DNA from: a virus
DNA: 52,219 nucleotides
Virus record (IMG/VR): IMGVR_UViG_3300048997_000467
Location: 1 to 52,219 of that record
Reading direction: 5' to 3' (one strand)
The notes under the pieces were generated by a model. That model had not been told where the DNA came from. It was given only the letters and a program-made list of their open reading frames with translations, and made no database searches. Both the position numbers and the translations under genes were made by a program. Numbering within the stretch: the first letter of the stretch is position 1; every line of letters starts with the position of its first letter. Of this stretch, positions 27,570 through 49,943 are shown piece by piece.

Positions 27570-28858
27570 GCGAGCGCATCCCGAAGGAGCTGAAGTTTGG
27601 CACGCTGGCGTTCAAGGTGCTGCACCTGGGCGATGGGCGGCTGGCGTTTTGCTACCAGGGCGCGGCGGGAAAGCGGGTGATGGTGCCACGCGTTTCGCTG
27701 GAGAAGCTGCGCCTGGCGGCGGAGGAGGTGGCGCGGAAGATTTTGAATGCGGAGACGGCGGCGCAGGATCTGACGGCGGATGACCGGCGCATGGCGGCGA
27801 GTGCGCTGGCGGCGCTGCGACCCACGGGGCTGCACCTGGATACGGTGGCACGCGAGGTGGCGGAGGCGTGGGCGCTGACCAAAGGGGTCTCGATCGCGGA
27901 GCTGGGCCGCTTTTATGCGAGCCGAAACCCGAGAGGGGCGACGATGCCGGCGGCGCGCGAGCTGGTGGCGCAACTACTGGTGACGCTGGAGCGGGATGTG
28001 CGGCCGCGTTCCGACAAATACCGGAAGGGGCTGAAGAATGATCTCCAGGCGTTTGTGGCGGTGCATCCGCGGCTGGAGCCGGTGACGCAACAGGCGGTGA
28101 GGGCGTATTTGCGGGAGCTGAAGACGCGGGCGGGGAAGGGCGGGGAGGTGCGGCCGGTGGGGCCGCGGCGCCGCGATAATGTGAGGGACGGAATCGTGCG
28201 GCTGTTCAATTTCGCGAAGGCGGAGGGGTATCTGCCCGAAGACAAGCAGACGGAGGCGGAGAAGGTGGAGAAGCTGAAGCCGGAGAAGGATGTGACGACA
28301 TGGAGCCCGGCGGAGATCCAGGTGATGCTGGAGGCGGTCTCGTGGCGCTGGCTGCCGTGGCTGGTGCTGGGGGCGTTTGCGGGGCTGCGAACTTCGGAGA
28401 TTTTCCGGCTGACGTGGGGGGCGATCAAGTGGGAGCGCAAGGTGATCGCGGTGCAGCGGAAGGTGGCGCGGAAGGTGAGGACGAGCCGGCTGGTGCCGAT
28501 GGCGGACAACCTGATCGCGTTTCTGGCGCCGTTCAAAGACAAGGTGGGGCCGGTTTTTCCGCATGAGAGCTGGCGGACGATCGAGGATTCGCACGGGGCC
28601 GAGATCGAATCGATCGTGAAGAAAACGGGGCTGAAGTGGAAGCAGAACGCCTTGCGCCATTCGTTTGGCAGCCATCGCTTGGCGGTGACGAGCAATTACG
28701 ACCAGGTGGCGATTGAAATGGGCAATTCGCCGGCCAAGGTGCGCGAGGACTACAACGATCCGAAGGACGAGGCGGAGGGGAAGGCGTACTTCGGGATTTT
28801 CCCGTCTGACTGGAAGTTCGGGAACGTGATGCCGCTGGAGTTTGAGGCGAACGGGTAA
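27566..28858 (+). CDS. int: Tyrosine integrase of the helper phage
   Basis: A 430-aa protein. The core-binding domain lies at ~150-240 and the catalytic domain at ~255-410. Box I is GAFAGLRTSEIFRLTW (Arg ~275), the second Arg is in NALRHSFGSHRL (~363), and the nucleophile Tyr is in KVREDYND (~396). The usual LGH(S/T) before the Tyr is EMGNSP here. The start is set at ATG 27566, overlapping the previous stop. It is followed directly by a tRNA 3' end, the expected attP. The residues ~1-60 before the core-binding domain may be an arm-binding domain. Confidence 0.88.
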   Translation: MSERIPKELKFGTLAFKVLHLGDGRLAFCYQGAAGKRVMVPRVSLEKLRLAAEEVARKILNAETAAQDLTADDRRMAASALAALRPTGLHLDTVAREVAEAWALTKGVSIAELGRFYASRNPRGATMPAARELVAQLLVTLERDVRPRSDKYRKGLKNDLQAFVAVHPRLEPVTQQAVRAYLRELKTRAGKGGEVRPVGPRRRDNVRDGIVRLFNFAKAEGYLPEDKQTEAEKVEKLKPEKDVTTWSPAEIQVMLEAVSWRWLPWLVLGAFAGLRTSEIFRLTWGAIKWERKVIAVQRKVARKVRTSRLVPMADNLIAFLAPFKDKVGPVFPHESWRTIEDSHGAEIESIVKKTGLKWKQNALRHSFGSHRLAVTSNYDQVAIEMGNSPAKVREDYNDPKDEAEGKAYFGIFPSDWKFGNVMPLEFEANG

Positions 28859-29239: not shown

Positions 29240-29641
29240 GTGCTGAAATCCATCAACGAGCTCGCCGACCTCACCGGCAAGGACCGCCGCACCATCACCG
29301 CGCGCCTCGCCGATCTCCCCTTCGAGCCCGGCCCCAAAGGCGCCCACCTCTTCGAGTCCGCCCTCGCCCTAGCCGCCATCTACGGCGCGGATTCCTCCGG
29401 CAAATCGCTCGACCAGGCGCGCACCGAACAAGCCCTCGAGCAAGCCGCCCTCACCCGCGTCCGCCGCGAAGAAGCCCAGCGCACCCGCATCCCCATCGAG
29501 ATCCCCATCGGCGAAAACGACCGCCTCACCCAGGCCGTCGCCGCCATCCTCAAAGCCGCCCGCGGCAAACCCCTCACCCTCGAGCTCATCAACTCCCTCC
29601 TCGCCAAATTCCGCGACCTCCCCGCCAAGCTCAAATGGTAG
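29240..29641 (+). CDS. Terminase small subunit (helper)
   Basis: A 133-aa Nu1-like protein. The N-terminal HTH is LKSINELADLTGKDRRTITARLADLPF. A helical middle follows, and the C-terminal part RTRIPIEIPIGENDRLTQAVAAILKAARGK...LLAKFRDLPAKLKW is the segment expected to bind the large subunit. GTG 29240 lies 20 nt after GTGACAC, a variant of the TTGACAC box, and gives exactly the length of the satellite protein at 39364-39765. The two share IPI(E/D)IPI, KAARGK and an identical C-terminus FRDLPAKLKW, with near-identical DNA over the last ~32 bases. Confidence 0.85.
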   Translation: MLKSINELADLTGKDRRTITARLADLPFEPGPKGAHLFESALALAAIYGADSSGKSLDQARTEQALEQAALTRVRREEAQRTRIPIEIPIGENDRLTQAVAAILKAARGKPLTLELINSLLAKFRDLPAKLKW

Positions 29642-31656
29642 CCCCGCCCCCACGCGCGGCCCTCGAAGACCCCCTCTCCCTCGCCGCCTATCGCCTCGCC
29701 CTCGCCGCCACCCTCCAGCGCAACTTCGCCCCCTGGACCATCCGCGACCCCTTCGCCTGGGCCGAGCAAATCCGCCGCCTGCCCGATGATCACGGCGCCA
29801 CCCGCCCCTTCTCCTTCGAGTACGCGCCCTACCAGCGCGAAATGTACGCCGCCCTCTTCGAGCCGCGAAATCAGGAAGTCGTCTTCCAGCTCTTCTCCCG
29901 CGGCGGCAAAAGCGAAGTCGTGCTCAACGCCCTCGGCTACCTCATCCACGAACGCCCCTGCCGCATCGGCGTCATGTGGCCCGTCGAAGGCGACGGCAAG
30001 CTCTGGTCAAAGGACGACTTCATGGGCGCCCTCATCGGCCCCACCCCCGAGCTCCTCGAGCTGATCCCGAATGAATCCGGCCGCCGCCGCCGAAACTCCA
30101 CCCTCCTCCACAAGCAATTCCCCGGCGGCTCCATCCAGATCCTCGGCGCGAACGCCCCCGGCCGCGTCCGCCGCGTCAAAGCCCGCTTCCTCTACGCGGA
30201 TGAAATCGACGCCATCGAGACCACCTCCGCCGGCGAAGGCGATATCCTCGCCATCTTCAAAAAGCGCGCCAGCGAGTTTGCCGATCGCATCGAAGTCTAT
30301 TGCTCCTACCCCAAGATCAAACGCCAGTCCCGCATCGAAGCCAAGCGCCTCGAAAGCGACGATCGCCATTGGTTCGTCACCTGCCCCCTCTGCGGCGGCG
30401 AGCCCTTCGTCCTCCACCGCCCCAGCCAGCTCCGGTTCGATCCCGAGCGCCCCCACGAAGCCCGCCTGGAGTGCCCCCGCTGCCGCGGCCTCCTCACCGA
30501 TTCCCAGCGCCACCACATGGCCCGCGCCGGCTTCTGGCGCGCCACCCGCCCCTTCACCGGAAAGGCCGGCTTCCACGCCGGCTCCCTCCTCTGGCCCCAC
30601 AACTTCGAAGACCCCGCCTACCTCCAAAAGTACCCCGGCGGCTACCTCCACGAGCTCGCCCAGCAAGTCATCGATGCCGAGCGCGCCGATAACCCCGAGC
30701 ACGCCCGCATGGTCCTGGTCAATACCTGCGATGCCGAGACCTACGAGCGCGATCTCGATAAAAAACCCGAGCACACCGCCCTCTACAACCGCCGCGAAAA
30801 GTACGATCCCCGCGAAGTCCTCCCCGAAGGCGTCCTCCTCCTCACCCTCGGCGGCGACATTCAAAAAGACCGCGGCGAATTCTTCATCCTCGGCTGGGGC
30901 GAAAAATCACAGTCCTGGGGCATCGATCACTGGAAAGTCACCGGCTCACCCCTCGACCCCGCCTTTTGGGAGCAAATCGATAAACGCCTCGAGCAAGCCG
31001 CCTGGAAGCACCCCAGCGGCCACTACCTCCGGATCGCCGCCGGCCTCATCGATTGCAACTACAAGCCGGATGAAACCAAAGCCTTCACCCGCCGCCTCGC
31101 CCGGCGCCAGATCTTCGCCTCCCGCGGCTCCACCCAGTTGAACAAACCCATCACCGGCCGCCCCAAACGCGAAGGCAAGCCCCCGGTGAAGGTGTACGAG
31201 CTCGGCACCCACAAAGCCAAAGACATCCTCTACCAGCGGCTCGATTTGCCTCATCCCACCGCCACCGGCTACAAACACTACCCCGCCATCGGCCTCTTCG
31301 ATGAAGCCTACTTCAAACAGCTCACCATCGAAAACAGCGAAATGCGCCGGGCCAACGATGGCGAATTCTACCGCTTCTTCTTCAAAGAAGAAGGCGACCG
31401 CAACGAAGCCATCGATGGCGAAGTGTACGCCCTCGCCGCCGAGCGCCTCGCCCGCAACGGCAAACGAGAAAGCGACTTCTACGCCAAGCTCAAAGCCAAC
31501 CTCACCCAGCCCGCCTCCGGCAAACCTCACCCCTCCTCTCAGCCCGCCTCCGAATCCCCCGCGCCCACGCCCGGGCAACCTCACCCCCCGCGCCGCTTCG
31601 TGCAGACCACCCAGCGCCCCGGCCGAGGCGGCTTCGTCGGCGGCTGGAAAAAGTGA
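29635..31656 (+). CDS. Terminase large subunit, GpA family
   Basis: A 673-aa protein with Walker A-like SRGGKSEV at ~88-95, Walker B FLYADEID at ~184-191, a zinc-ribbon insertion CPLCGGEPF...LECPRCRG at ~247-285, and the nuclease motif LTLGGDIQKDR near ~403. These are marks of the lambda gpA group of packaging ATPase/nucleases, which make cos ends. ATG 29635 overlaps the TerS end. It is the only large terminase in the window, so the satellite must use it. A Pro/Ser-rich tail (residues ~620-660) precedes GGWKK. Confidence 0.92.
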   Translation: MVAPPPRAALEDPLSLAAYRLALAATLQRNFAPWTIRDPFAWAEQIRRLPDDHGATRPFSFEYAPYQREMYAALFEPRNQEVVFQLFSRGGKSEVVLNALGYLIHERPCRIGVMWPVEGDGKLWSKDDFMGALIGPTPELLELIPNESGRRRRNSTLLHKQFPGGSIQILGANAPGRVRRVKARFLYADEIDAIETTSAGEGDILAIFKKRASEFADRIEVYCSYPKIKRQSRIEAKRLESDDRHWFVTCPLCGGEPFVLHRPSQLRFDPERPHEARLECPRCRGLLTDSQRHHMARAGFWRATRPFTGKAGFHAGSLLWPHNFEDPAYLQKYPGGYLHELAQQVIDAERADNPEHARMVLVNTCDAETYERDLDKKPEHTALYNRREKYDPREVLPEGVLLLTLGGDIQKDRGEFFILGWGEKSQSWGIDHWKVTGSPLDPAFWEQIDKRLEQAAWKHPSGHYLRIAAGLIDCNYKPDETKAFTRRLARRQIFASRGSTQLNKPITGRPKREGKPPVKVYELGTHKAKDILYQRLDLPHPTATGYKHYPAIGLFDEAYFKQLTIENSEMRRANDGEFYRFFFKEEGDRNEAIDGEVYALAAERLARNGKRESDFYAKLKANLTQPASGKPHPSSQPASESPAPTPGQPHPPRRFVQTTQRPGRGGFVGGWKK

Positions 31657-37465: not shown

Positions 37466-38822
37466 CGCCCGGGCCAGCGCTATGGCCCTCGAACTTTCCC
37501 CCGTCCAATCCACCCTCACCTTCGAGGGGCCCGAGGCCATCAAGAGCATCGCCACGCAGGATGGCCACGTGACCGTGGGCGCCTACGCCATCCGCTTCTC
37601 CGGCCCCGGCGATCCGGATACCTCGGGCGAATACTTCACTCCGCGCACCAACTTCGGCCCGAAGAATGGCGATGGCGTGGCCACCCTCTTCCACCACGGC
37701 CTGCCCATCAAAGGCCTGGAGCGCCTGCAGGAGATCGAATTCGGCCCCGCCACCACCCGGCGCGATGAGACGGGCATCTTCGCCGAAACCACGCTCGATC
37801 TCTCCGATCCCGATCAAGCCCGCCTCGCCCACTGGTGCGCCAAGGGCGCGCTGAAATGGTCCAGCGGCAGCGCCTCCCACCTCGTGCGCAAAGGCGCGGA
37901 TGGCTGCGAAATCACCCGCTGGCACCCCATCGAATTCTCCTTCACGCCGGCGCCGGTGGATGAGCGCCTCCCCGCCATTCGCCCGCTGAAGTCCCTCCCC
38001 GAAATCGCCGCGCCCATCGCCGCCGCGCTCGCCGAGGCCTTTGCCGCGCCCGCCCCCACGCCCGCCGCGCCGCCCGTTGACACGCCGAAAGAGGCCACGC
38101 CCACCGCGCCCACCAAGTCCGCACCCACCCCTTCAATCACCGTCATGGAAAAGACCCCCGAACAGCTCGAAGCCGAACAGAACGCCCGCACCGAAACCGC
38201 CGTGAAGGCGCGCGAGCTGGCCATCGAGGAAATCACCGCCCTGGGTGAGCAATACCACTGCATGGATGCGGCTCGCAGCTTCATCCGCGATCGCAAGTCC
38301 GCCGGCGACTTCCAGAAACACATCCTCACCGATGTGCTGAAGGCCAAGCCGGTCAAATTCAATGCCGGCCTCATCGGCATGGATCAAAAGGAGCTTGGCC
38401 GCTATTCCTTCCTGAAGGCGGTGCGCGAATTCAGCGACGGCTTCAAGCTCACCGGCCTCGAAAAAGAGGTCCATGATGCGGCGGTCAAAGCCACCGGCCG
38501 CAAGCTGGATGGGCGCACCTTCGTGGTGGCGCAGGACATCTTCCAGAGCGCCCTCAAAGCGCAGAACGTCACCACGGCGACCGCCGGCGGCTTCATGGTG
38601 CAGAACGATTACCTGCCGCCCATCGAGCTGCTCCGCAACCGCACCGCCGTCATGAAAGCCGGCGCCACCATGCTCGGCGGCCTCGTGGGCGACGTCATCA
38701 TCCCCGTGCAGACGGGCGCTTCCGTCTCCTACTGGGTGGCGGAGACGGGCGCGCTCACCGATAGCGAGCTCACCTTCGGCCAGAAGAAGCTCACCCCGCA
38801 CCGGCTCGGCGTCACCATCCCC

Positions 38823-38835
38823 TATTCCACTCAGT
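38823..38835 (+). other. Left attachment core (attL) of the satellite
   Basis: tattccactcagt. It matches 48885-48897 (tattccacgcagt) in 12 of 13 bases. Both copies are in the same codon phase of the capsid gene and encode YSTQ. The mismatch is at a synonymous third position (ACT/ACG, Thr), so either exchange point restores the protein. Confidence 0.8.
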
Positions 38836-38860
38836 GGCGTAAGGAGAGGAGCCCAGAGCG

Positions 38861-38878
38861 TTGCCACACCGTTGGCAA
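38861..38878. promoter_or_regulatory. Left-end arm-type inverted repeat
   Basis: TTGCCA-cacccgt-like spacer-TGGCAA, about 26 bp inside the left core. The same hexamers recur in reversed order at the right end (48737-48751: TGGCAA-ccg-TTGCCA). Likely integrase or excisionase arm sites. Confidence 0.55.
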
Positions 38879-38885
38879 AATGGGA

Positions 38886-38914
38886 GGGGCCGCGCGAAAA
38901 GCGCGGCCCCTTAA
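38886..38914 (-). terminator. Hairpin terminator of the leftward satellite gene
   Basis: GGGGCCGCGC / GCGCGGCCCC form a perfect 10-bp stem with a five-base loop, directly after the TAA of the minus-strand gene at 38911. The downstream T run is weak (tcccattttg). Confidence 0.65.
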
Positions 38915-39111
38915 CCCTTGCGGAGCTTCCGCAGGGAGTGGGCGAGGGTAACGACCGCAACGGCTAGAGTCACCAGCCGCACGGCCAGCGTGAGCACCGC
39001 ATCGGCGGCATTCAGCGAGGCCAGGACATCGGCCCCCAACAGGCCAAGGACTGAGGCCACGCCGGCCCCTATGGGGTGGCGATCAAAGAGCGGGGAGAAT
39101 GGCAGGAACAT
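38911..39111 (-). CDS. Satellite membrane protein, 66 aa
   Basis: ATG 39111 lies 21 nt after a TTGACAC box on the minus strand, which fixes the start. MFLPFSPLFDRHPIGAGVASVLGLLGADV is followed by a second hydrophobic segment (VLTLAVRLVTLAVAVVTLAHSL) and a basic end (RKLRKG). Two membrane helices and ~66 aa resemble small holin-type or superinfection-type proteins. It is the only gene between the left end and the cos-like site and ends in a hairpin terminator, so it is its own unit. Confidence 0.55.
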   Translation of the reverse strand: MFLPFSPLFDRHPIGAGVASVLGLLGADVLASLNAADAVLTLAVRLVTLAVAVVTLAHSLRKLRKG

Positions 39112-39125
39112 CGGCCCGCCCGAAC

Positions 39126-39132
39126 GTGTCAA
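39126..39132 (-). promoter_or_regulatory. TTGACAC box on the minus strand, 21 nt before ATG 39111
   Basis: ccTTTGACACgttcggg on the minus strand. It shows that the box follows the start codon's orientation and not the general late direction. Confidence 0.55.
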
Positions 39133-39168
39133 AGGAGGGTGCCCGGTCCCCTCCGCACCCTCCCACCC

Positions 39169-39245
39169 CCCCGCCCCCTCGCGGGTCCTTCCGGGCGGAA
39201 ACGGGGCCAGCGGGTACCGAACCCCCCGTTTTACGTTAGATACAG
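39169..39245 (+). other. Probable cos site of the satellite
   Basis: CGCGGGTCCTTCCGGGCGG at 39181 matches lambda cosQ (CGGGTCCTTTCCGG) even better than the helper copy. The block 39183-39245 aligns without gaps to 29125-29187, sharing GGGTCCTTCC, GGT(A/T)CCGAACCCCC, TTTT and TAGAT.CAG. The small terminase start is 181 bp downstream of GGGTCC, close to the lambda layout. Between them, 39260-39345 has no similarity to the helper and holds CGATTT words at 39271 and 39306 that may be satellite-specific cosB sites. Confidence 0.65.
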
Positions 39246-39363
39246 CCCCCGCCCGTTCTCCTCACCAGCACGATTTCAAATCGCGAAACACAGCATTAAC
39301 ACAGGCGATTTCTGAACGCGATCCGCTTTCCACCTAGGGAGAAATTGACACCCTCGCGCCCGG
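39246..39363 (+). promoter_or_regulatory. Satellite-specific leader, candidate cosB
   Basis: AT-richer than its surroundings. CGATTTC at 39271 and 39306 and a GATTTcAAATC dyad at 39272-39282 are candidate binding sites for the satellite small terminase, whose HTH differs from the helper's. TTGACAC at 39345-39351 ends it. Confidence 0.4.
39345..39351 (+). promoter_or_regulatory. TTGACAC box, 19 nt before satellite terS ATG 39364
   Basis: aaaTTGACACcctcgcg. The helper terS has the variant GTGACAC at 20 nt. Confidence 0.55.
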
Positions 39364-39765
39364 ATGCTCGTTTCCATCGCCAAACTCGCTTCTATCACAG
39401 GGAAGGACCGAAAGACGATCATCCCCCGAATCGCCCACCTCCCCAGCAAGGCCGGCGAAAAGGGAGCGAAACTCTACGAGAGCCCGGCTGCATTGGCCGC
39501 GATCTACACGCGCGACAGCGCCAGCGGAAACCTCGACGAAGCGCGCCGCCGCCAAGCCGACAGCGCGGCGCACCTGAACGAACTACGGGGGGAGGAGATT
39601 TCAAAGACGCGCATCCCCATCGACATTCCCATCCGCGAAAACGACCAAATCACGCAAAGCATCGCCGCAACGCTGAAGGCCGCCCGCGGCAAGACGCTTT
39701 CCCTCGAACTCATCAACGAGCTTTTGGGGAAGTTTCGCGACCTCCCCGCCAAGCTCAAATGGTAA
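39364..39765 (+). CDS. Satellite terminase small subunit
   Basis: A 133-aa protein, the same length as the helper TerS. HTH: VSIAKLASITGKDRKTIIPRIAHLP. The middle (residues ~50-80) is divergent from the helper, but RIPIDIPIRENDQITQSIAATLKAARGK and FRDLPAKLKW match closely, and the last ~32 bases of DNA differ at about one position. In Nu1 the C-terminal part binds the large subunit and the N-terminal part binds cosB. A conserved docking end with a changed DNA-binding part is what a satellite needs to direct the helper's TerL to its own DNA. Confidence 0.85.
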   Translation: MLVSIAKLASITGKDRKTIIPRIAHLPSKAGEKGAKLYESPAALAAIYTRDSASGNLDEARRRQADSAAHLNELRGEEISKTRIPIDIPIRENDQITQSIAATLKAARGKTLSLELINELLGKFRDLPAKLKW

Positions 39766-39790
39766 CCGGCGGGCGTGGTTTCCCGGCCCG

Positions 39791-39797
39791 TTGACAC
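39791..39797 (+). promoter_or_regulatory. TTGACAC box, 41 nt before ATG 39832
   Basis: cgTTGACACggcggcg. The spacing is longer than usual; no start codon in frame lies closer. Confidence 0.4.
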
Positions 39798-39831
39798 GGC
39801 GGCGCGGAAGCGCACCAAAACCGCCCTTCCC

Positions 39832-40011
39832 ATGCCCCGTAAAACCGTTGTCGAACCCCTCACGAATCCCCCGGCCTACACCTACCGGGCACGCGTGGTT
39901 TCCCCGGTGACGATCTACGGCGAGGCCCGCGAAGTCGGCAGTATCTTGGAGGTGGACAAAGACACCTTCGACAACCTGGAGAAGAAGGGCCGCTTGGAAC
40001 CCGTTGCCTAA
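39832..40011 (+). CDS. Small satellite head protein, 59 aa, paralog of 49944-50132
   Basis: YTYRARVVSPVTIYGEAREVGSILEVDKDTFDNLEKKGRLEPV aligns with the helper protein MLAKVIAKTTIDNLPVAIGDVVEVDEITFRNLAAKGRLEEA: the same beta-type stretch followed by the closing K.GRLE motif. In the helper it stands after the capsid gene; here it stands before it. Probably a small head or completion protein. It lies 32 bp before the capsid start. Confidence 0.65.
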   Translation: MPRKTVVEPLTNPPAYTYRARVVSPVTIYGEAREVGSILEVDKDTFDNLEKKGRLEPVA

Positions 40012-40043
40012 TTCCTTTCACGCCTGAAATCCGCCCCCCTCCC

Positions 40044-41021
40044 ATGCCCACCGCTCCCTATTCTCTCGCCAATGCCTTCAAAGGCATCCTCGAAGGCAAC
40101 CTCACCGGCTTCGAGTTGGAAACCCATCAAGAGTTGGTGAAGCTCATGCCGAGCAAGCCCGCCGGCTTCCTCATCCCCCTGCGTGCCACGCTCAAGGCTC
40201 AGAACGTCACCAGCGCCCCGGCTGGCGGGTTTACCGTAGGAAGCGCCGTGCCCATGGCCGCGGATGCTCTGCGGCCCGCCTCGCTCGCCATGCGGCTCGG
40301 CGCGGAAATGATCTCCCTGCGTCCCAATGCCATCGTTCCGAGCATTGACGTAGGCGCGCAAGGCTACTGGCTCGCCGAGGGTGAGCTTTGCCCGGAGAGC
40401 ACCGCCAGCCTGAAGGCGCTCAAACTCACCCCCAAGCGGTGCGCCGCATGGATGAAGGTTACCAACCAACTTCTGGCCCAAGCGCCGATTGCCGAATCCA
40501 TGCTCACCCGCGATCTGCGCGGAGCCATCGGCCAGGCTCTCGACCTCGGCATTTTTTCCGGCGTGGGCGGCCACGAGCCTACCGGGCTGCTCAACAGCGG
40601 CGCGGTGCAATCCTACACTTTCGGCGGCGCTCCCACCCGCGCCAAACTCGCCGCGATGGAACGGAAGCTCGGCGACGAAAACGCCGACGATTCCAGCGCC
40701 CAATGGGTCACCAGCCCTGCGGTGCGCGAGAAATGGCGCAACACGGTGAACAACGACACCGCCGGCAGCGGCTTCCTGTGGGACGATGACAACCGCGCTA
40801 TCGGCAAGCCCGCATGGGCGACCAATAGCGTTCCAGGCGATTTCGTCATCCTGGGGGACTTCTCCGACCTGCTCATTGTGAATTGGGGCGTCATCGAAAT
40901 TTCGGACCCCTTCGGCGCGAAGAGGACCGCTCAAACCGAGCTGCTCATCGAAATCCACGCCGACGCCGGCCCCGTGCGCGGCAAAAGCTTCACCGTCTCC
41001 ACCGACACCGCCAACCAGTAA
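40044..41021 (+). CDS. Satellite major capsid protein (HK97 fold, no protease)
   Basis: A 325-aa protein. The capsid domain aligns with the helper's: TLKAQNVTSAPAGGFTV against ALKAQNVTTATAGGFMV, YWLAEGELCPESTASLKALKLTPKR against YWVAETGALTDSELTFGQKKLTPHR, then the ending FTVSTDTANQ against FNVSTDSAAQ. It has a short N-arm of ~50 residues and no prohead protease or long scaffold, so it would need the helper protease or go without. At the place matching the attachment core it reads VTNQLLAQ with unrelated codons, which would protect it from its own integrase. It could form a smaller or satellite-specific capsid. Confidence 0.85.
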   Translation: MPTAPYSLANAFKGILEGNLTGFELETHQELVKLMPSKPAGFLIPLRATLKAQNVTSAPAGGFTVGSAVPMAADALRPASLAMRLGAEMISLRPNAIVPSIDVGAQGYWLAEGELCPESTASLKALKLTPKRCAAWMKVTNQLLAQAPIAESMLTRDLRGAIGQALDLGIFSGVGGHEPTGLLNSGAVQSYTFGGAPTRAKLAAMERKLGDENADDSSAQWVTSPAVREKWRNTVNNDTAGSGFLWDDDNRAIGKPAWATNSVPGDFVILGDFSDLLIVNWGVIEISDPFGAKRTAQTELLIEIHADAGPVRGKSFTVSTDTANQ

Positions 41022-41042
41022 ATCGGCGGCTGCCACCGATTT
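41020..41042. repeat. 23-bp palindromic element, copy 3 (satellite)
   Basis: Begins AAATCGG and ends CCGATTT, one base different from the two helper copies. It starts on the last bases of the capsid stop codon and lies in the gap before 41065. Confidence 0.8.
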
Positions 41043-41064
41043 CAAAACCACCCCACTCCCCACC

Positions 41065-41691
41065 ATGAAGCCCGGAACCTTTGTCCGCCCCGTCGCCCCC
41101 GAAAACCGGGAGGCTTTTGAAGACCAGCGCGCCGCCGCCAACGCCCGCGTGCAACACGAATTGCTCCGCCTGCGAGCGGGAGAACGGCCCGTGCCCCCGT
41201 GGGAAAATCAAGACGCCTACGCCTACGACAAAACGATCGCCGAGACTCACCTGAAATACGTGCAGGCTTGGCGGCCCGATCCGAAGCGCCGCGTTCTCAC
41301 CCACTGGAAGAAGCTGATGATTCAGCAGCGGGGCGGCATCGTTTCGATTTCCTACGAGGCAGACGGAAAGCTCTCGGATGCCAGTCTCTTTGCGGCGGAA
41401 AAAGGACCGTTCAAAATCCGCTGGCTGCACGGGTCCAAGGCCGGGCAAGTGGAAGACGTTCCGCCCGAATCTTACCTTGCCTTCAGAAAAGGCCCTGGGC
41501 AGACCACCGTTGCCGAGCCCGTCCCCGATGACGAGCCCCTTTGCCCGCCGGCGCAGCCCGCGAACATGCCGAGCTGCTTTCTCAAGGCGCAACGCCTGGT
41601 GGCGAAGAAGCTCAAAAAGGCCCCGGAAGACATCACCTACGCCGAGGCCCTCGATTTTTTCCACAAGCGGCTCGCCGCTGAAACTTTTTAA
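41065..41691 (+). CDS. Satellite-specific protein, 208 aa
   Basis: ATG 41065 start. An N-terminal helical region (NREAFEDQRAAANARVQHELLRLRAGE) is followed by a small beta-domain (RGGIVSISYEADGKLSDASLFAAEKGPFKIRWLHGSKAGQVEDVPPESY) and a helical end (FLKAQRLVAKKLKKAPEDITYAEALDFFHKRLAAETF). It is placed between capsid and tail genes, where neck genes would be. It has no visible paralog in the helper, so it may adapt the satellite head to the helper's neck. That is inference. Confidence 0.55.
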   Translation: MKPGTFVRPVAPENREAFEDQRAAANARVQHELLRLRAGERPVPPWENQDAYAYDKTIAETHLKYVQAWRPDPKRRVLTHWKKLMIQQRGGIVSISYEADGKLSDASLFAAEKGPFKIRWLHGSKAGQVEDVPPESYLAFRKGPGQTTVAEPVPDDEPLCPPAQPANMPSCFLKAQRLVAKKLKKAPEDITYAEALDFFHKRLAAETF

Positions 41692-41822
41692 CAACTTCGG
41701 GGGATTGTCTGCCCTCGGGGCTTGAATGAGAGGTGGAACAGGGTTCTTGACTGCCCGTTCCGCTGCGGTTGAGGCCGGGGGCTTGGTGGCCCCCGGCCTT
41801 CACGCTTTTTCCAACTTTTTTT
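41692..41822 (+). other. Intergenic region with hairpin before the satellite tail genes
   Basis: ccgctgcggttgaggccggggg...ccccggcc forms a stem near 41770-41797, followed by a T-rich stretch ttttttccaacttttttta. It may be an intrinsic terminator after 41691 that also precedes the start at 41823. Confidence 0.55.
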
Positions 41823-42557
41823 ATGCCCGGAATCACGATCAAACCCGGCTCCAGCAAGCCGTGGATGGCCAACTTCAAGCAATACGCGAAGTGGTACACG
41901 GAAGCGCACCCCGACGCGAACGCCGCCGAGCTGTTCGTGGATCAATGCCGCAAGACCGCCGTGGAGCTTTACCAGCAAACCGTGGCCGTCTCCCCCACGA
42001 AGGCCGAAATTGTGGCCGATGTGAAATCGCGCGGCTGGCACATCCCCGCCTTCTTCGGCAAGGTGGAGCGCGACGATAAAGGCCACATCGAGCACGGCGA
42101 GCGCATCGGGCGCGGCTTGGCCAAATGGTGGGCCGCCGCCGCCGAGAAACGCCGCGACAAGCGCCGCAAAGGCCGCCCCACCACCGCCGCGCAGAAAGCG
42201 CGCGATGAACGCCTCTCCCGCCGCCCCACCCTCGCGCAGATGCAGGCTTACGCCATCGCCGTCCGAAACAAGGCCAGGCTCTTTGTCGCCTCCGGCTGGC
42301 TCGGCGCTTCCTCCGATCTCGGCGGCTCCCTGAGCCTCTCTTCCGGCAATATCGACCACGAGCGCGGCGGAGCGGTCATTTCCCGCCAGCCCGGCAAAAC
42401 CATTGTCACCCTTTGGAACAAAACCCCCGGCGTCGAAAAGCTCAACGCCCGCTCCCACTTCGTCCGCGTAGCCCTCATCGTGCGCGCGGCTGACATGGCG
42501 GTTTACGTGCGCCGCAAGGCCGCCGAAGCCGCGCAACGCTTCCTCCGCAAAAAGTAA
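41823..42557 (+). CDS. Satellite tail protein upstream of its tape measure, 244 aa
   Basis: ATG 41823 (MPGITIKPGSSKPWMANFKQYAKWY). An upstream in-frame start at 41769 lies in the hairpin region and is rejected. It is homologous to the helper 2757-3512 product: KARLFVASGWLGASSDLGG against ARLFLASGWLGAIADLGG; AEIVADVKSRGWHIPAFF against AQIEADVKRQGWKIPAYF; a basic middle (KRRDKRRKGRP) in both. Tail completion or minor tail role, as in the helper. Confidence 0.7.
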   Translation: MPGITIKPGSSKPWMANFKQYAKWYTEAHPDANAAELFVDQCRKTAVELYQQTVAVSPTKAEIVADVKSRGWHIPAFFGKVERDDKGHIEHGERIGRGLAKWWAAAAEKRRDKRRKGRPTTAAQKARDERLSRRPTLAQMQAYAIAVRNKARLFVASGWLGASSDLGGSLSLSSGNIDHERGGAVISRQPGKTIVTLWNKTPGVEKLNARSHFVRVALIVRAADMAVYVRRKAAEAAQRFLRKK

Positions 42558-42568
42558 CCCGCCCCTCT

Positions 42569-44869
42569 ATGGACATTGAAGAAATACGCACGGATGTAAT
42601 CTGGGATACCTCCGGCGTGAAAGCCGGAGCCGACGACATTGAAAAAATCGTCGCCCGGCAACAAAGGATCGAGGCCGCGGCCCTCTCCGCCACCGAGGCC
42701 CGCCAGAAAGCCCACCAAGCCCGCATGGCGGGTCTTCGCTCTGCCCACGACGGGCGCGCCGGCAATTCCCGCATGACGGGCGATCTGCTCAATGCCGCCA
42801 CCGGTAGCAGCGGAAACGTCAACCGCGTGAACATGCTGCAGCACCTGGGCTTTAGCGCCGCCACCGGCGGCGCGGTTGCGGCTGGCATCGGCGCGGCCAC
42901 CGGCATCTTGAACCGCTACCGCGAAGAAGCCAAAGAGCTTCAGCGCACGAGCGATCGCCTGGACGAATCTTTCGCCAGCACGCGCGGCCGCGCGGCTTAC
43001 ATGAACGCCGGATCTGGCCGGGGCAGCTTGAGCGGCAGCATCGAAGATCTCCGCAAGGCCGGGCTCGCCGAGGCCGATCACCAAGGCGGGCTCATCCAGA
43101 CCCGCAAAGATCGAGACTACTTCTTTGGCGCGGGCGGCCCGGGTCCGGCGCGATTGGATGAAGGCTTGCACCACCTCAGCATCCCCGGCCTTCGGAGCTT
43201 AGGTGAATTGAACCTCACCGGCGGCGACAGCATCAACGAGCAGCTCGCAAAATCCCGCCAGCGCGAAGGCACCGCCAACAGCCTTCGCCAAAAGCTGGAA
43301 AACGACCGGAGCGAAGGGATTCGCAAGGATACCGCCTTTTCCCGCGAGCGCACGCGCGGCAGCTCCTTCCAAGCCGAGCGCCTGGAATTGCAGATGTCCG
43401 AAAAGCGCGAAATCGCCGAGGCCGGCGCGGAGCAAATTTCCCGGAAGGACCTCGCCAACATCCGCGCCCGTTTCGATATTGAGCGCCGCGAAATCGACGT
43501 GCGCGAACGCACCAGCAAGCTCGAGCTGAATACGCGCCAGGAAATCGCCGACTTCCGGGGCGGCCCGATGGACCGCGAGCAATTCGCCGCCAATCGGGAA
43601 TTGGACCTCGCCCGGAAAAGCCTGGAACTCGCCAAGAGCCGCACCAAAGAGGAGCAGGCACAGGCCCGCGTGCGCGTGGCCGCCGCCGAGCAGGCCGTCA
43701 CTCTCACGAACTTGGAAGCCGCTGCCCGGCGCGATATGTGGAAGGGCGAAGTGGAGGCCAACAACGTGCGCCAGCAAGGGCTGGGCTTCCGCGCCGGGCT
43801 GGCGAAAGACCGTTTCGGCCCCGAGGAAAACAAAAAATTCGCCGCCGGGCAGGCCGTGCAACGCCGGGAGGCCGAAGACAACCTGGTAGTCGCGCAAGGC
43901 GCGCTCGATCGTGTCAATAACAAGGCCACCCGCGAGTTTAGCAAAAACGGCGCAGTCACCCCCGAGACGAAGCACGAACAGACCCTTTTCATGCAGGCGC
44001 GGGACGCCGCGCAGACGGAGAAGCAGGAAAAGGAAACCCAGCTCGCCGAAGAGGAGAAAGCCCGCAATATCCAAATCGAACGAGCCAGGAACGCGGGCGG
44101 AAATGAAACCGCCGCCATGCGCCTCGACAACAAAGGCCGGGGGGACCTCGCCGAGCGCCGCCGCGATGAAGACCAAACCAAGGCGCAGGCCGAAGAGCTC
44201 CGCCGCCAAGGCCGCCCCGAGCTCGCCGCCGAGCTGGAGAAACAGCACGCGCTGCGCGAGCAATCCCGGCACGATCAAATTTTCCTTCTCCCGAATGGCC
44301 GCCGGCGGCCCCGAGCGGACATCATGCACGATCTGCGCTCACGCCGCCGCACCGAGCGGCGCTTTGACGCCGCCCACGCACGCGCCGCCGGCTCCGGCGA
44401 TCCTCGCGGCGCCGGCCTTCACAGCGGCGATCCGACCAGCCGGCACAACGGCAACGGCTTGGACATTCCGCCCGGAAACGTCGGGCAAGACCCGAAAGGG
44501 CCAGGATTGCACCCTCAGCACCTTACCGGCACCGGGCCTAGGGCCGTGCAATCCAATGTTTTCAAAAGGCCGTGGTACAACCCCACCGGCCGCGACGAAG
44601 ATCAAGACTTCAACCTCTGGGACGATCTCCAGAAAAAGCGCGATCTCCGATGGGGAAAGGAAAAGGGGAGTGGCGTCTCCAGCTCCTCCAGCTTGTATCA
44701 GCGTCCCGACCCCGATCAGATTGCCTCTCGAAAGACTTCTGATAGCGGAAAGGGCGGCCCGGCAGAGCAGCTCAAAGTTTTGCAAGAGATGAAGAACGAG
44801 CTGAAGGCCGTTATCATGGAGCAAACGAAGGTTCTTCGCGGTGGGCTTCCCAACGGAACTACGCCGTGA
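42569..44869 (+). CDS. Satellite tail tape measure protein
   Basis: A 766-aa protein, 48 residues longer than the helper's. N-terminal WDTSGVKAGADDIEKI, then GDLLNAATGSSGNVNRVNMLQHLG, the hydrophobic patch TGGAVAAGIGAATGI at ~95-110, and long coiled coils up to ~590. The helper has the same order. DQIASRK recurs near both C-termini. A Gly/His-rich stretch near 605-650 is unique. Since tape measure length sets tail length, this protein could produce tails about 7 nm longer, or give chaperone and tip specificity. Confidence 0.8.
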   Translation: MDIEEIRTDVIWDTSGVKAGADDIEKIVARQQRIEAAALSATEARQKAHQARMAGLRSAHDGRAGNSRMTGDLLNAATGSSGNVNRVNMLQHLGFSAATGGAVAAGIGAATGILNRYREEAKELQRTSDRLDESFASTRGRAAYMNAGSGRGSLSGSIEDLRKAGLAEADHQGGLIQTRKDRDYFFGAGGPGPARLDEGLHHLSIPGLRSLGELNLTGGDSINEQLAKSRQREGTANSLRQKLENDRSEGIRKDTAFSRERTRGSSFQAERLELQMSEKREIAEAGAEQISRKDLANIRARFDIERREIDVRERTSKLELNTRQEIADFRGGPMDREQFAANRELDLARKSLELAKSRTKEEQAQARVRVAAAEQAVTLTNLEAAARRDMWKGEVEANNVRQQGLGFRAGLAKDRFGPEENKKFAAGQAVQRREAEDNLVVAQGALDRVNNKATREFSKNGAVTPETKHEQTLFMQARDAAQTEKQEKETQLAEEEKARNIQIERARNAGGNETAAMRLDNKGRGDLAERRRDEDQTKAQAEELRRQGRPELAAELEKQHALREQSRHDQIFLLPNGRRRPRADIMHDLRSRRRTERRFDAAHARAAGSGDPRGAGLHSGDPTSRHNGNGLDIPPGNVGQDPKGPGLHPQHLTGTGPRAVQSNVFKRPWYNPTGRDEDQDFNLWDDLQKKRDLRWGKEKGSGVSSSSSLYQRPDPDQIASRKTSDSGKGGPAEQLKVLQEMKNELKAVIMEQTKVLRGGLPNGTTP

Positions 44870-45126
44870 AACTAGAGCAGCTCCTTTCAGGATTGGGGGA
44901 CGGCCCGATTTGGGTCACGGGCGCATGGCTCAAGCAACTTGTGGCCGCCATCATCGAAGACCGCGCGCGGCTCGTGGAAGGGACCGGCGACGAAATACCC
45001 ACCCCCTGGGGCCGTTTCTTGAACGTGCGCGGCAGCGGGAAAACCGCCACCTTCAACGCCTACTTCGCCGTTTCCGGCCAAATCAAATTGGTGGAGCTTA
45101 CCGGGCGCGTCATAGAGGACTCGTGA
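44866..45126 (+). CDS. Satellite small tail protein, 86 aa
   Basis: It starts with GTG or ATG-like overlap at 44866 right at the tape measure stop (ccGTGAAACTAG). Same length and clear similarity to the helper 6403-6663 product (EDRARLVEGTGDEIPTPWGRFLNVRGSGKTATFNAYFAVSGQIKLVEL). The helper's intervening 226-aa gene is absent here. Confidence 0.7.
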   Translation: MKLEQLLSGLGDGPIWVTGAWLKQLVAAIIEDRARLVEGTGDEIPTPWGRFLNVRGSGKTATFNAYFAVSGQIKLVELTGRVIEDS

Positions 45127-45152
45127 GCGAAGACCACACCGCCGGGCCGCGC

Positions 45153-45638
45153 TCAAAACCCCTTTAGCTCGTCCCTGCGCGGCTTATCGCGCTCGTCCTG
45201 CAAAGCCTTGTCTATCGCGAAAAAGCTTTCATCGGCCTTTGGAAATCCGCGCCGGTAGATTTCCAACGCCCCAAGTTGCGTCATGTGGTAGGCGCCCAAG
45301 TCTTCCAGCACCCAAGTTCTCCCTTGGCGATCAATTGAGGAGAGCTTCCACACTCGCCCCCCGGCGTTCGCCGCCATCAGGGCATCTACTTCCACCGGCG
45401 TAAGCGGGGAGACGCTCGTGTGAGAGTAATTTTCCCGGTGGCACTTCCCCTGCCACATATACGCCTCAACGCTGATTCCGGCGCTTTCGTACGACCTTTT
45501 TTCAAACTCCGCCGCCGGGAACGAACCTGAGAAGGTGCGAACCGGCTTGCCGTAGCGGGCATCCAGCTCCGCCGCCGTCTCGCCGATCCGCGCGAGCGCC
45601 AGGCCCGGCACCGCGAGCAAGAGGCAAAGCAGTTTCAC
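45153..45638 (-). CDS. Satellite secreted protein, ARIGE...RYG family
   Basis: A 161-aa protein with a signal peptide (MKLLCLLLAVPGLALA) and mature start RIGETAAELDARYGKPVRTFSG. Later parts include CHRENYSHTSVSPLTPVEVDALMAANAGGRVWKL. It is of the same plan as the helper protein at 26331-26810 (signal peptide, RIGE, RYG, then a ...LMxAN stretch at a similar place: MMKANSDGQAWTI). It is transcribed against the satellite tail genes, with its own upstream region, so it is probably expressed in the integrated state. Cell-envelope exclusion is a plausible role. Confidence 0.65.
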   Translation of the reverse strand: MKLLCLLLAVPGLALARIGETAAELDARYGKPVRTFSGSFPAAEFEKRSYESAGISVEAYMWQGKCHRENYSHTSVSPLTPVEVDALMAANAGGRVWKLSSIDRQGRTWVLEDLGAYHMTQLGALEIYRRGFPKADESFFAIDKALQDERDKPRRDELKGF

Positions 45639-45852
45639 GGGCGCAAATTTCAGGCTCGCCGCCGCTCCCCGGCAAGCGTAATTTCGCCCCGCACTGGACT
45701 AACGGTGCAACGCAATTCTCATCCTTTCGGCGTAATGAACCGAGGGGGCGAAAAAATGAAAACAGAGAAACAAGTCCGTCCCCTGGATAGCGCCATGGTC
45801 ATTCTTGGCGCGACAAGGTTAGTCCCTTCCGGGGGGCGGACTTTTTGTTTCC
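45639..45852. promoter_or_regulatory. Satellite divergent control region
   Basis: About 210 bases between divergent genes. A stem agtcc...ggact followed by TTTTT at 45821-45847 looks like an intrinsic terminator or attenuator for the rightward transcript. An open frame from ATG 45756 crosses it and overlaps the next gene, and I do not trust it. The upstream part (45690-45760) is AT-rich enough to hold promoters both ways. Confidence 0.5.
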
Positions 45853-45945
45853 ATGAGAAGTCAGAACCCGCCGCGCCTCGCGCGGCTTTCCGTGGCGGCG
45901 CGGGCCGTCACCCCCGAAATCATCGTCGGAAAGGGGGCGTGCTAA
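45853..45945 (+). CDS. Candidate 30-aa protein before the satellite regulator gene
   Basis: ATG 45853 opens MRSQNPPRLARLSVAARAVT and ends TGCTAA one base before ATG 45947. High third-position GC and tight spacing suggest a translated leader coupled to the next gene. It lies right after the terminator-like stem, so it could report attenuation. Confidence 0.3.
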   Translation: MRSQNPPRLARLSVAARAVTPEIIVGKGAC

Positions 45946-45946
45946 A

Positions 45947-46801
45947 ATGCGCCTCCCAGATGATCACATCGCCTTTGAAGGGCGCGTCATCCCCGCCGAA
46001 AAGGTAGAGGAAACCGGCGACGAAAACCAAACCACCGCGCTCTACCGCGACAAGGCGGGGAAGTGGTACGCGGTCTTTCACAATTCCAAGCGGTCTTGGG
46101 AGCAGGCGCTCCGCATGTATTTCGAGGAAACGGGGGAAAGGAGCGTCCCCTTTCCCAACCGCGCCGCGCAAGACAGGATCGACGAACTCTCGGAAATCTC
46201 CATTCGCACCGTGCGCCTTTCCGAGCGCGGAGCCCTCGCATGGTATCACCGGGAATTTGTGAATGACGGCCCGCTCAATAAGCTCATGCGGGAGGCCATC
46301 GCCGCTTTCGTTCCCAAAGCGGAACGGCAAGGCAAGGTGCAGCTCACGGCATGGGTAAAGCGCGCCGTGGCCGCGCAATTCCAACGGTGCGCCCACGCCG
46401 CCGGCATCACCGAACAGGAGCTACTCGCCAGCTTCATCGAAGACGGGCTGCAACGCGCCCGCACGCCCCGCAAAGGCTCGCCGATCCCGACCGCGCGCAA
46501 GGCCACCCGTGAGGAGCTAAAGGAGCTGGCGCGGGCTTACCGTGCGGGCGAACCGCTCTCTGACGAGCAATGGAGCTGGATCGCCGAACTCATCGGCAAT
46601 CCGCCCGCCGCCCGCGCGAAGAGCACCGCCCCGGCCGGTGCCCACGTGCAACTCGAATTGGCAACCTCGCTCGTGGCCGTGGTCGCCCGTTTCGAGTCCA
46701 CCCTCGCCGCCGATACGTTGGCCGAAGCGCAGCGGACCGTCTCCCGGCTCCATCAATCGCTCCACGCCGAAGAAACCTTTCGGCGCGCCGCCCACGCCTA
46801 G
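45947..46801 (+). CDS. Satellite-specific protein, 284 aa, possible regulator
   Basis: It starts at ATG 45947. The N-terminal ~50 residues are beta-rich (AFEGRVIPAEKVEETGDENQTTALYRDKAGKWYAVFH). The middle is helical with a possible HTH/RHH-like segment (KVQLTAWVKRAVAAQFQRCAHAAGITEQELLASFIEDGL). The C-terminus is a helical coil (HVQLELATSLVAVVARFESTLAADTLAEAQRTVSRLHQSL). It has no counterpart in the helper. Its position next to the excisionase gene suggests a role in induction or repression of the satellite. Confidence 0.55.
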   Translation: MRLPDDHIAFEGRVIPAEKVEETGDENQTTALYRDKAGKWYAVFHNSKRSWEQALRMYFEETGERSVPFPNRAAQDRIDELSEISIRTVRLSERGALAWYHREFVNDGPLNKLMREAIAAFVPKAERQGKVQLTAWVKRAVAAQFQRCAHAAGITEQELLASFIEDGLQRARTPRKGSPIPTARKATREELKELARAYRAGEPLSDEQWSWIAELIGNPPAARAKSTAPAGAHVQLELATSLVAVVARFESTLAADTLAEAQRTVSRLHQSLHAEETFRRAAHA

Positions 46802-46875
46802 CCCCAACCCGCCCGGCGGGAGCCAAACCCTCCCGCCGGGCACTTCCTCTTTCCCACATGAATCTATCCCATTCG

Positions 46876-46882
46876 TTGACAC
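46876..46882 (+). promoter_or_regulatory. TTGACAC box, 19 nt before ATG 46895
   Basis: tcgTTGACACgcctttcgg. It supports ATG 46895 over the internal ATG at 46922 as the start of the excisionase-like gene. Confidence 0.5.
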
Positions 46883-46894
46883 GCCTTTCGGTGC

Positions 46895-47089
46895 ATGGCC
46901 GCACCAGAACCCCAAAAACTCATGAACATCGAACAACTCGCCGACAGACTTTCCCTGTCCGTCGCGGGCGTTCGAAAGATGATCAAACGCCGGGTCATCC
47001 CCGTTATCAAACTCGGTTACAAGTGCATGCGCTTTCGCTGGGCGGATGTGGATGCAGCCCTGTCCCGAGTCACCGTTCGCGCCGTCTAA
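46895..47089 (+). CDS. Satellite excisionase-like protein
   Basis: A 64-aa protein: MNIEQLADRLSLSVAGVRKMIKRRVIPVIKLGYKCMRFRWADVDAAL is a winged HTH of the excisionase (AlpA/helix_turn_helix_17) type covering nearly the entire protein. It lies 18 bp before the integrase, the classic xis-int pair. Since the helper's capsid gene depends on excision, its control by helper infection or induction is the key regulatory step. Confidence 0.75.
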   Translation: MAAPEPQKLMNIEQLADRLSLSVAGVRKMIKRRVIPVIKLGYKCMRFRWADVDAALSRVTVRAV

Positions 47090-47107
47090 ACTGGGAGGGT
47101 TTTCGCC

Positions 47108-48727
47108 ATGAGTAAGCCAGCCTACGGGGTACGAGATTACAACCATTCGAGCCGTCCAAGCCTTCGGGCCGTAGTGAATTGGAAGGACAGCGAGGGCAAA
47201 AGGCAGCGCAAATTCTTTCCGAGCAAAGGCGAAGCGAAGGAGTGGGCTCGCCAGCGGGAACTAGAGCTGCTCAACGGCGGCAGGGAAGTCCTGAATTTCC
47301 CCTCGTGGCTGCGGGTCATGGCCGAACAGTGCCAAGCGCGCCTTACCCCTCACGGAAAGGATTTGCGGGCCGCCACAGACCATTTTATCGCCGCGTTGGA
47401 GCGCTCCAAGGCCAGCGTGCCCCTTTCCCATGCGATCGCCGAGTTTCTCGCCCGCAAAGCGCAACGGAAGGTACCCCTCTCGAAAACGTATGTCTGGAAG
47501 CTCCGCACCTACTTGCGGCGCTTCCTTGCCGGCCGGGAAGAAAAATTGGTGGAAGCCATCACCCATGAGGAATGCCAAGCCTTCGTCGATTCTCTGCCGT
47601 TCGCTCCGAAGACGGTGAACAATGCTTTGAGCATCCTTTTCGAGTTTTTCGGATGGTGCATGGGCCGGGGCCGGAAATGGACGCCGGATAACCCCATGGA
47701 GGGAATCGAGTACCACAAGATCAAGGAGCAGGCCGCGGGCATCCTTTCGCCCGAAGAGCTGAGGAAGCTTTTGGAGGCCGCGGATGCGGAAATGCTGTGT
47801 TACGTCGCCATCGGCGCGTTTGCCGGGCTGCGCGCCGCAGAGCTGCGACGGCTCGACTGGAAAGAAATCAATCTCGAAGACGGCTTCATCGAAGTCCTTG
47901 CCTCGAAGTCGAAAACGGCCACGCGGCGCGTCATCAAGATTCAACCGGCCCTCCGCACCTGGATTGAGCCTTTTGCCAAACCGAGCGGGCGCGTGTGCCT
48001 CAATAATTCGCCCGCTTTGCTCATCGAGCTTTGGAAGAAGGCCGGCCTCACGGAATGGCCGAACAACGCGCTGCGCCACTCGTTCGCCAGCTATCACTTG
48101 GAAATGTTCAAGGATGCGGCGGCGCTCGCCTTGGAAATGGGGCACACCACCACAAACCTGATCTTCCAATTCTACCGCCAGCTCGTGCGGCAAAGCGTGG
48201 CCTTGCAATACTGGAACGTACTGCCGGGCACCGGCACCGATCTCCCGGCCATGGCTGCCCGCAATAGCCTGCGAAAATGCACCCTCGCCAAAACCAAGGC
48301 CATTCTCGGAAACCCGAAGTTCAAGCCCAACTGGTACCGCCGGCTTTACGGCTACCAGAAGACCACCCGCGAGTATCTCGCGCTGTTTGGGGGGTGCGTG
48401 GCGTCCATTGAAAACTGGATGCGGAGAGGCATGCCGCTTGACGATCCCGAAGCAATGGAACGCCTCCGCCACGGCGAGTACACTTTCAACGTGCGGCAGC
48501 ACCGCGAGATGTACGGTGCCACCTCTCGCGAAGTGAAAACTTGGCGGCGCGCCGGCTGGCCCTTGGACGATCCGGAGCGGGTGAGAAACTACTTGGAATA
48601 CGTTGCGGAGACGAAGCGAATCAGTGGGCTTGTTCCGGCAAAAGCAACCAGCTCGGAAGCAACGGCACGGGTGATTCAGATGCCCGACCAGCGCGCCGCG
48701 CGCTTCCGCTCAAGTCAGGCCGTCTAA
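47108..48727 (+). CDS. int: Satellite tyrosine integrase with tandem HTH-like C-terminal extension
   Basis: A 539-aa protein. GGGAGG before ATG 47108 is a good ribosome site. Catalytic residues: Arg 242 in GAFAGLRAAELRRLDW, Arg 323 in NALRHSFASYHLE, His 346 in MGHTTTN and Tyr 356 in FQFYRQ. After the catalytic domain ~180 residues remain, far beyond normal. They contain two similar units, REYLALFGGCVASIENWMRRGMPLDDPEAM (~418-447) and HREMYGATSREVKTWRRAGWPLDDP (~462-487), that look like helix-turn-helix modules. It should recombine the 13-bp core within the helper capsid gene. Confidence 0.88.
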   Translation: MSKPAYGVRDYNHSSRPSLRAVVNWKDSEGKRQRKFFPSKGEAKEWARQRELELLNGGREVLNFPSWLRVMAEQCQARLTPHGKDLRAATDHFIAALERSKASVPLSHAIAEFLARKAQRKVPLSKTYVWKLRTYLRRFLAGREEKLVEAITHEECQAFVDSLPFAPKTVNNALSILFEFFGWCMGRGRKWTPDNPMEGIEYHKIKEQAAGILSPEELRKLLEAADAEMLCYVAIGAFAGLRAAELRRLDWKEINLEDGFIEVLASKSKTATRRVIKIQPALRTWIEPFAKPSGRVCLNNSPALLIELWKKAGLTEWPNNALRHSFASYHLEMFKDAAALALEMGHTTTNLIFQFYRQLVRQSVALQYWNVLPGTGTDLPAMAARNSLRKCTLAKTKAILGNPKFKPNWYRRLYGYQKTTREYLALFGGCVASIENWMRRGMPLDDPEAMERLRHGEYTFNVRQHREMYGATSREVKTWRRAGWPLDDPERVRNYLEYVAETKRISGLVPAKATSSEATARVIQMPDQRAARFRSSQAV

Positions 48728-48884
48728 AGCCGGAAATGGCAACCGTTGCCAACTTCTGTTGAAAAACAGCTCACAATAGAGCTTTCAGGGGCAGATTGGG
48801 GCATTTGGCCAATCGACCGGGAAGCGGCATGAACAAAGGATTCCAGAGTAAACGGAGCCAAGGGAAGATTAGGCGAGATTAGAG
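48728..48884 (+). other. Satellite right-end region
   Basis: 157 bases after the integrase without a gene. TGGCAA-ccg-TTGCCA lies at 48737-48751, matching the left-end hexamers. cagctcacaatagagct and gggaagattaggcgagattag (direct aga/g-ttag units next to the core) are further candidate arm sites. Confidence 0.5.
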
Positions 48885-48897
48885 TATTCCACGCAGT
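48885..48897 (+). other. Right attachment core (attR) of the satellite
   Basis: tattccacgcagt, 12 of 13 identical to 38823-38835 and in the same capsid codon phase. Confidence 0.8.
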
Positions 48898-49472
48898 TCA
48901 TCGCGCAGAGCTCGATGGATGCTGAGTCCTTCATCCGCAACGATGCGAACCGCGTTCTCCTCATCGAGAAAGACCGCGCGGCCCTCCTCGGCAGCGGCGC
49001 CAATGGCCAGCCCCTCGGCCTGGCGAACACCTCCGGCATCAACGCCACCGTCACCTACGGCGGCGCGGCCGAGTGGACCGATGTGGTGGAGCACGAAACC
49101 GGCATCGCCGACGACAACGCGGATATCGACGCCATGGCGTTCATTCTCGGTGTCACCACGGTCGGCAAGTGGAAGACGAAGCTGAAGGATTCCGTGGCCG
49201 GCGCGAATTACCTCATCAACGGCGCGGGCGACAGCATGGAAGCGAACGGCTACCCGGTCCTTCGCACCAAGCAGGTCGGCAGCGCCGCGCAGTCCTTCTT
49301 CGGTTGCTGGAGCCAGCTCATCATGGGCTCCTGGAGCGGCCTCGAGGTGATCGTCGATCCCTTCACGCTCAAAAAGAGCGGCCAGGTGGAAATCACCTTC
49401 AACGAGCTGTGCGACATCCTCGTCCGCCAGCCGCTCGCCTTCAACGTCTCCACCGACAGCGCCGCCCAGTAA
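48885..49472 (+). pseudogene. Major capsid protein (helper), 3' part, split from 37482-38835
   Basis: The frame YSTQFIAQSSMDAESFIRNDANRVLLIEKDRAALLGSGANGQPLGLAN continues the HK97-fold capsid domain exactly where the left part stops, through FNELCDILVRQPLAFNVSTDSAAQ. In the integrated state an isolated product could only start at ATG 48915 (185 aa) and would not assemble. Joining the codons at the att core gives 195 residues after the left 447. Confidence 0.88.
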
Positions 49473-49898: not shown

Positions 49899-49943
49899 CC
49901 CGCCGCCGTGCCCCTCGCGCCCTCGCTCAAACCCCGCCGCCTC

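Follow-up and report, generated by a model that had tools for sequence, protein, structure and literature searches.

Gene content of the locus

The analysed stretch, in the following called the window, is the complete virus record IMGVR_UViG_3300048997_000467 of 52,219 nt. Its two ends share 127 identical bases, which gives a closed circle of 52,092 bp. An overlap of 127 bases is common among assemblers, and the end repeat is most likely the assembly overlap of a circular molecule rather than a biological repeat. The record is the complete circle of a temperate cos phage (in the following the helper) that carries an insert of 10,062 bp in its protease-capsid gene. All features of the locus are listed in Table 1.

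Table 1. Features of the helper and of the insert in its capsid gene; positions refer to the window
Feature	Position	Strand	Basis
Tyrosine integrase of the helper	27482..28858	+	PF00589 3.1e-10
Helper TerS and lambda-gpA-type TerL, packaging genes that a satellite would share	29240..31656	+	Profile searches
Helper protease-capsid gene, N-terminal part	37482..38951	+	phrog_617, weak phrog_4523, PF05065 residues 369-451; joined frame
Left core TATTCCACTCAGT	38823..38835	+	Core comparison
Insert (putative integrated satellite), 10,062 bp	38836..48897	+	In-phase join, cores, capsids of relatives
Small hydrophobic membrane ORF	38911..39111	-	ORF list
cos-like site	39173..39240	+	Three-way alignment with helper and L002, pattern scan
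TerS (small terminase subunit)	39364..39765	+	phrog_141 1.8e-6; 62% to helper TerS 29240-29641
DUF7210-like small protein, 78 aa	39775..40011	+	Profile; paralog of helper 49908-50132, 46% over 37 aa
Major capsid protein of the insert, 325 aa, HK97-type, without protease domain	40044..41021	+	PF05065 7.8e-27, phrog_617 1.3e-39
208-aa protein without profile match	41065..41691	+	Profile searches
Tail-region protein	41823..42557	+	Paralog of helper 2757-3512 (39%); 43-47% to same gene in relatives
Tape-measure-like protein, 766 aa	42569..44869	+	Paralog of helper 3550-5706 (38%)
Small tail-region protein	44866..45126	+	Paralog of helper 6427-6663 (49%)
Predicted secreted protein	45153..45638	-	Distant paralog of helper 26331-26810 (27%)
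284-aa protein, weak ribbon-helix-helix signal	45947..46801	+	PF20605 0.0022, under cut-off
Excisionase-like HTH_17 protein	46895..47089	+	PF12728 5.9e-7, over cut-off; phrog_66, phrog_1840
Tyrosine integrase with C-terminal extension	47108..48727	+	PF00589 8.7e-12, phrog_1 3.9e-35
Right core TATTCCACGCAGT	48885..48897	+	Core comparison
Helper capsid gene, C-terminal part	48898..49472	+	PF05065 1.3e-14

Profile searches further assigned a portal, a GH108 endolysin and a tail-fibre-like gene to the helper. Its TerL is ~50-55% identical to that of a small set of IMG/VR phages, reaches at most about 33% identity among the best matches listed in phage records, and aligns to prophage relatives in the genome collection at 25-33% only. 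The attP of the helper was read from the sequence at ~28900-28941, adjoining the helper integrase, and resembles a tRNA 3' end; ARAGORN found no whole tRNA, and a search of Rfam gave no match. In addition, an N6/N4 DNA methyltransferase (PF01555) is encoded at 17766-18935 on the minus strand of the helper.

At the left end of the insert, the hydrophobic ORF is possibly a holin or exclusion gene, and its stop codon is directly followed by a strong hairpin (38885-38911, fold z -5.5) which is a possible terminator. The cos-like site parallels that of the helper at 29115-29185, and cos-like DNA is common to the insert, the helper and the related phage L002. The label of the tape-measure-like protein is based on position, composition and the length spread in relatives (498-814 aa); it had no profile match and no match among phage records. 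Structure models of the 208-aa protein and of a 244-aa protein of the insert were of low confidence (pLDDT 44-47). The 284-aa protein is a possible regulator. The genes of the secreted-protein family, on the plus strand in the helper and on the minus strand in the insert, each lie near their own integrase module, and both are possible superinfection-exclusion genes. Within the C-terminal ~150 aa of the integrase of the insert two similar W..G.PLDDPE segments resemble helix-turn-helix repeats.

The initial annotation, made from the letters alone, had placed a tyrosine integrase, an excisionase-like gene, a small terminase and an HK97-type capsid protein in the insert, and the profile searches agree. 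The cos-like site which it had named is borne out by the sequence common with the helper and L002. Its three tail paralogs were recovered, and the 78-aa ORF and the secreted protein were added as further pairs. It had also listed large terminase, portal, protease and lysis genes as missing, and indeed profile searches of the proteins of the insert recognised none as TerL, portal, protease or endolysin; a replication gene was not recognised either. The end overlap of the record and the helper integrase with its attP had escaped it.

The insertion site in the capsid gene

The helper capsid frame had been described as broken and resumed in the same phase 10,062 bp further on, and this holds. Codons 1-451 reach position 38835 and are followed by 38 read-through codons within the insert, and the frame of 37482-38835 picks up in phase at 48898-49472. 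The joined frame encodes 642 aa without a stop and aligns through the join with the unbroken capsid proteins of the relatives L002, L005 and L006. The length of the insert is an exact multiple of three (3 x 3354).

The near-identical cores reported at both breaks were likewise found: 12 of the 13 positions match, and shuffling the 100-bp flanks 200 times never produced such a match. Elsewhere in the window the core sequence does not occur, even with up to two mismatches allowed. Since the cores match and the join is in phase, exact removal of the insert would restore the helper capsid gene. As the frame reads, full-length helper capsid protein cannot be made while the insert is integrated; the truncated product retains the protease-like N-terminal region, while of the capsid domain roughly the first third is left.

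Relatives of the insert and its genes

Six genes of the insert are paralogs of structural or packaging genes of the helper, with identities of 31-62%. They are not equally close to the helper. TerS is 62% identical to the helper protein and 45% and 41% to those of L002 and L005, respectively, whereas the tail-region protein at 41823-42557 shows 43-47% identity to other phages and 39% to the helper copy. Given this unequal closeness, helper genes are unlikely to have been duplicated recently. A pN/pS estimate on the paralog pairs was set aside, as GC bias and saturation distort the values.

Among the surveyed relatives, many of which are fragments, no second TerS or capsid gene was found. Together with the unbroken capsid genes of L002, L005 and L006 this indicates that the insert is sporadic. 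Single-protein searches of IMG/VR with the capsid protein and the integrase of the insert returned no relatives, and a TerS alignment gave no match in the genome collection. Patterns for the restored helper site and for the circle junction of the element found neither in IMG/VR, where such scans may omit near-identical records. One occurrence of this capsid-embedded element was found and no second example. Four relatives (L045, L050, L053 and L074) carry 4-5 kb extra between the portal and capsid genes, compared with a gap of 33 bp in the window.

Nature of the insert

The insert is very probably a phage satellite that is embedded in the protease-capsid gene of its helper. The in-phase join with its matching cores, its own cos and TerS, the integrase with the excisionase-like gene, the lack of TerL and portal, the sporadic occurrence and a capsid gene of its own that lacks the core were counted for this reading, and a working precedent is provided by 11capE, the excision of which restores the helper capsid gene (PMC10111431). 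The single occurrence, the missing restored site and circle in IMG/VR and the lack of a recognised replication gene were counted against it. The initial annotation had proposed a satellite in the helper capsid gene that must be excised before the helper can propagate, and this stands as the best reading; it had, however, missed a close precedent, the helper-embedded PICIs (HE-PICIs; PMC10111431).

Alternatively, a related phage could have integrated into the capsid gene as a second prophage that is now decayed or defective, has lost its other genes and is without satellite function. Several genes of the insert are of the same kind as those of the helper, and the closer similarity of 41823-42557 to other phages than to the helper would suit such an origin. 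However, every frame is intact despite identities of 31-62% to the helper copies, and cos, TerS and the integration module are present while TerL, portal and lysis genes are missing. As size and content are also like those of known satellites, we consider a decayed prophage improbable.

A stable insertion with a regulatory role to the benefit of the phage, which leaves at lytic induction only, in the manner of developmentally excised elements, and has no transfer of its own, is very unlikely: a switch would have no use for a cos site, a TerS and a capsid gene, and the insert is absent from relatives, even though it lies in frame within a single essential late gene and regulated gene integrity is discussed in PMC10111431. 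A chimeric assembly from two genomes, conceivable for a metagenome-type virus sequence, is hardly credible, as matching 13-bp cores, a length divisible by three and an integrase module next to the break are unexpected from a misjoin and the molecule closes into a circle.

Comparison with helper-embedded PICIs and other satellites

A satellite within the capsid gene of its helper is a known concept, published in 2023 for satellites of E. coli. HE-PICIs (Tommasini, Mageeney, Williams, 2023) comprise 11capE and 491 others at 14 sites in prophage late genes, and were found via one integrase clade of PICIs (PMC10111431). In E. coli NRG857c, 11capE resides within gene E, the capsid gene of its helper, brings a second capsid gene with it, excises on induction and thereby restores the helper gene (PMC10111431). 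Its locus contains the split capsid gene, an integrase, an AlpA-type gene, a primase and the second capsid gene. In the searched literature, with subscription journals largely outside, helper-embedding was met in PMC10111431 and in brief citations only.

The satellite resembles 11capE in its size of about 10-11 kb, in its position within the major capsid gene of the helper, in the short core (10 bp in 11capE, 12/13 here) and in an own capsid gene which lacks this core. In both, an integrase and an excisionase-type gene point in the direction of the late gene, and both have cos-like DNA in common with a cos-type temperate helper. In difference to 11capE, the satellite carries TerS, and its integrase gene lies 3' rather than 5' in the element. 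The interrupted capsid protein and that of the satellite both belong to PF05065 and not to PF03864, and the helper is an uncultured phage.

The integrases were compared further. That of the satellite is 23% identical to that of 11capE over 181 aa (E 0.003), while its nearest matches are integrases of Akkermansia phages (28-32%), a likeness that may weakly point to a host among the Verrucomicrobiota. The W..G.PLDDPE extension is missing from the Akkermansia phage integrases. In the integrase tree, a 100/99 branch unites 11capE, two integrases closely related to it, mEp237 and P4, and the satellite integrase stands outside. With one HE-PICI sequence in the tree, forcing the satellite integrase together with 11capE and its two nearest integrases was rejected (AU p 6.6e-47), and forcing it into the wider group including P4 and mEp237 was rejected marginally (p 0.049). 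An earlier, smaller tree had been undecided on the HE-PICI placement (p 0.065), and the addition of more PICI-type sequences settled the question. Moreover, profile searches detected Arm-DNA-bind_3 in the integrases of 11capE and P4 and not in that of the satellite; this architecture is an observed trait of these two and not a published definition. AlpA (PF05930) had no match in the whole record, which contains a different HTH_17 protein, and none of the satellite proteins had a primase profile match or similarity to the 11capE primase.

Membership in the HE-PICIs was rejected, as the integrase lies outside the clade and is without Arm-DNA-bind_3, AlpA and primase are lacking and the gene order differs. 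The placement of the integrase, the lack of AlpA and primase, the presence of TerS and the differing gene order suggest that helper-embedding probably arose separately here, with a different integrase, in a non-PICI satellite of an uncultured phage lineage. A further-reaching proposal, in which satellites other than PICIs and P4 evolved capsid-gene embedding independently and the present one combines its own capsid and tape-measure proteins with portal, terminase and the other tail parts of the helper in mixed particles, the two genomes being sorted by capsid type, is rather doubtful. If the unrelated integrase and the unrelated capsid target hold, hiding in a late gene of the helper would be a repeated strategy, and helper-embedded satellites outside the PICIs would escape searches keyed to PICI genes.

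Like cf-PICIs, the satellite has its own TerS and capsid gene. However, cf-PICIs also encode portal, protease, connectors and TerL (PMC10690885). None of these four was recognised in the satellite by profile searches, so that membership in the chromosomal cf-PICIs was rejected, and in difference to them tail-region genes are present. With P4-like satellites and gram-negative PICIs it has in common the size, the presumed cos packaging by the helper and an excisionase-type regulator. The chromosomal site, AlpA, primase and, in P4, Sid/Psu/delta of these families were not found here; as both AlpA and the primase/replication zone are missing, membership in the gram-negative PICIs was rejected as well.

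Proposed mode of life

We propose that the satellite integrase put a circle of 10,062 bp into the 13-bp core within codons 448-452 of the helper protease-capsid gene. Upon induction, late transcription of the helper would enter the co-oriented satellite genes from the left and reach the excisionase-like gene and integrase last, an order by which excision would be coupled to late expression. Once excised, the satellite would be released as a circle, and the helper capsid gene would be whole again. The satellite adds 24% to the length of the helper genome, which exceeds the usual capacity of lambda-like heads, and packaging should therefore need excision. For lambda heads a tolerance of about 10% is given (PMC10111431).

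The missing genes imply that the satellite would depend on its helper for particle formation, presumably borrowing TerL, portal and lysis functions. Its cos and TerS may steer the TerL and portal of the helper to package satellite DNA. The cos-like sites at 29125 and 39183 are 10,058 bp apart, 4 bp short of the satellite length; cuts at both sites of the composite would give 10,058 and 42,034 bp, near the sizes of satellite and helper, with the wrong genes on each.

Particles may consist of the satellite capsid protein, that of the helper or both. Four copies of the satellite (40,248 bp) are near the size of the helper (42,030 bp), and heads of helper size might therefore take up concatemers; the alternative is small heads made of its own capsid protein. 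The satellite capsid gene does not contain the core (best match 8/13) and should thus not be targeted by its own satellite, as reported for 11capE. A PICI capsid gene proved dispensable in work cited by PMC10111431. Here, a satellite capsid gene beside the split capsid gene of the helper makes capsid replacement directly testable.

More speculatively, the tape-measure-like and tail genes might adjust the tails of satellite particles. This locus may not be the sole case of a tape-measure gene on a PICI-type element, as vB_KppS-Ant (LR881103.1; 16.5 kb) encodes an annotated tail tape measure protein along with a primase, a terminase and an integrase with 51% identity to that of 11capE.
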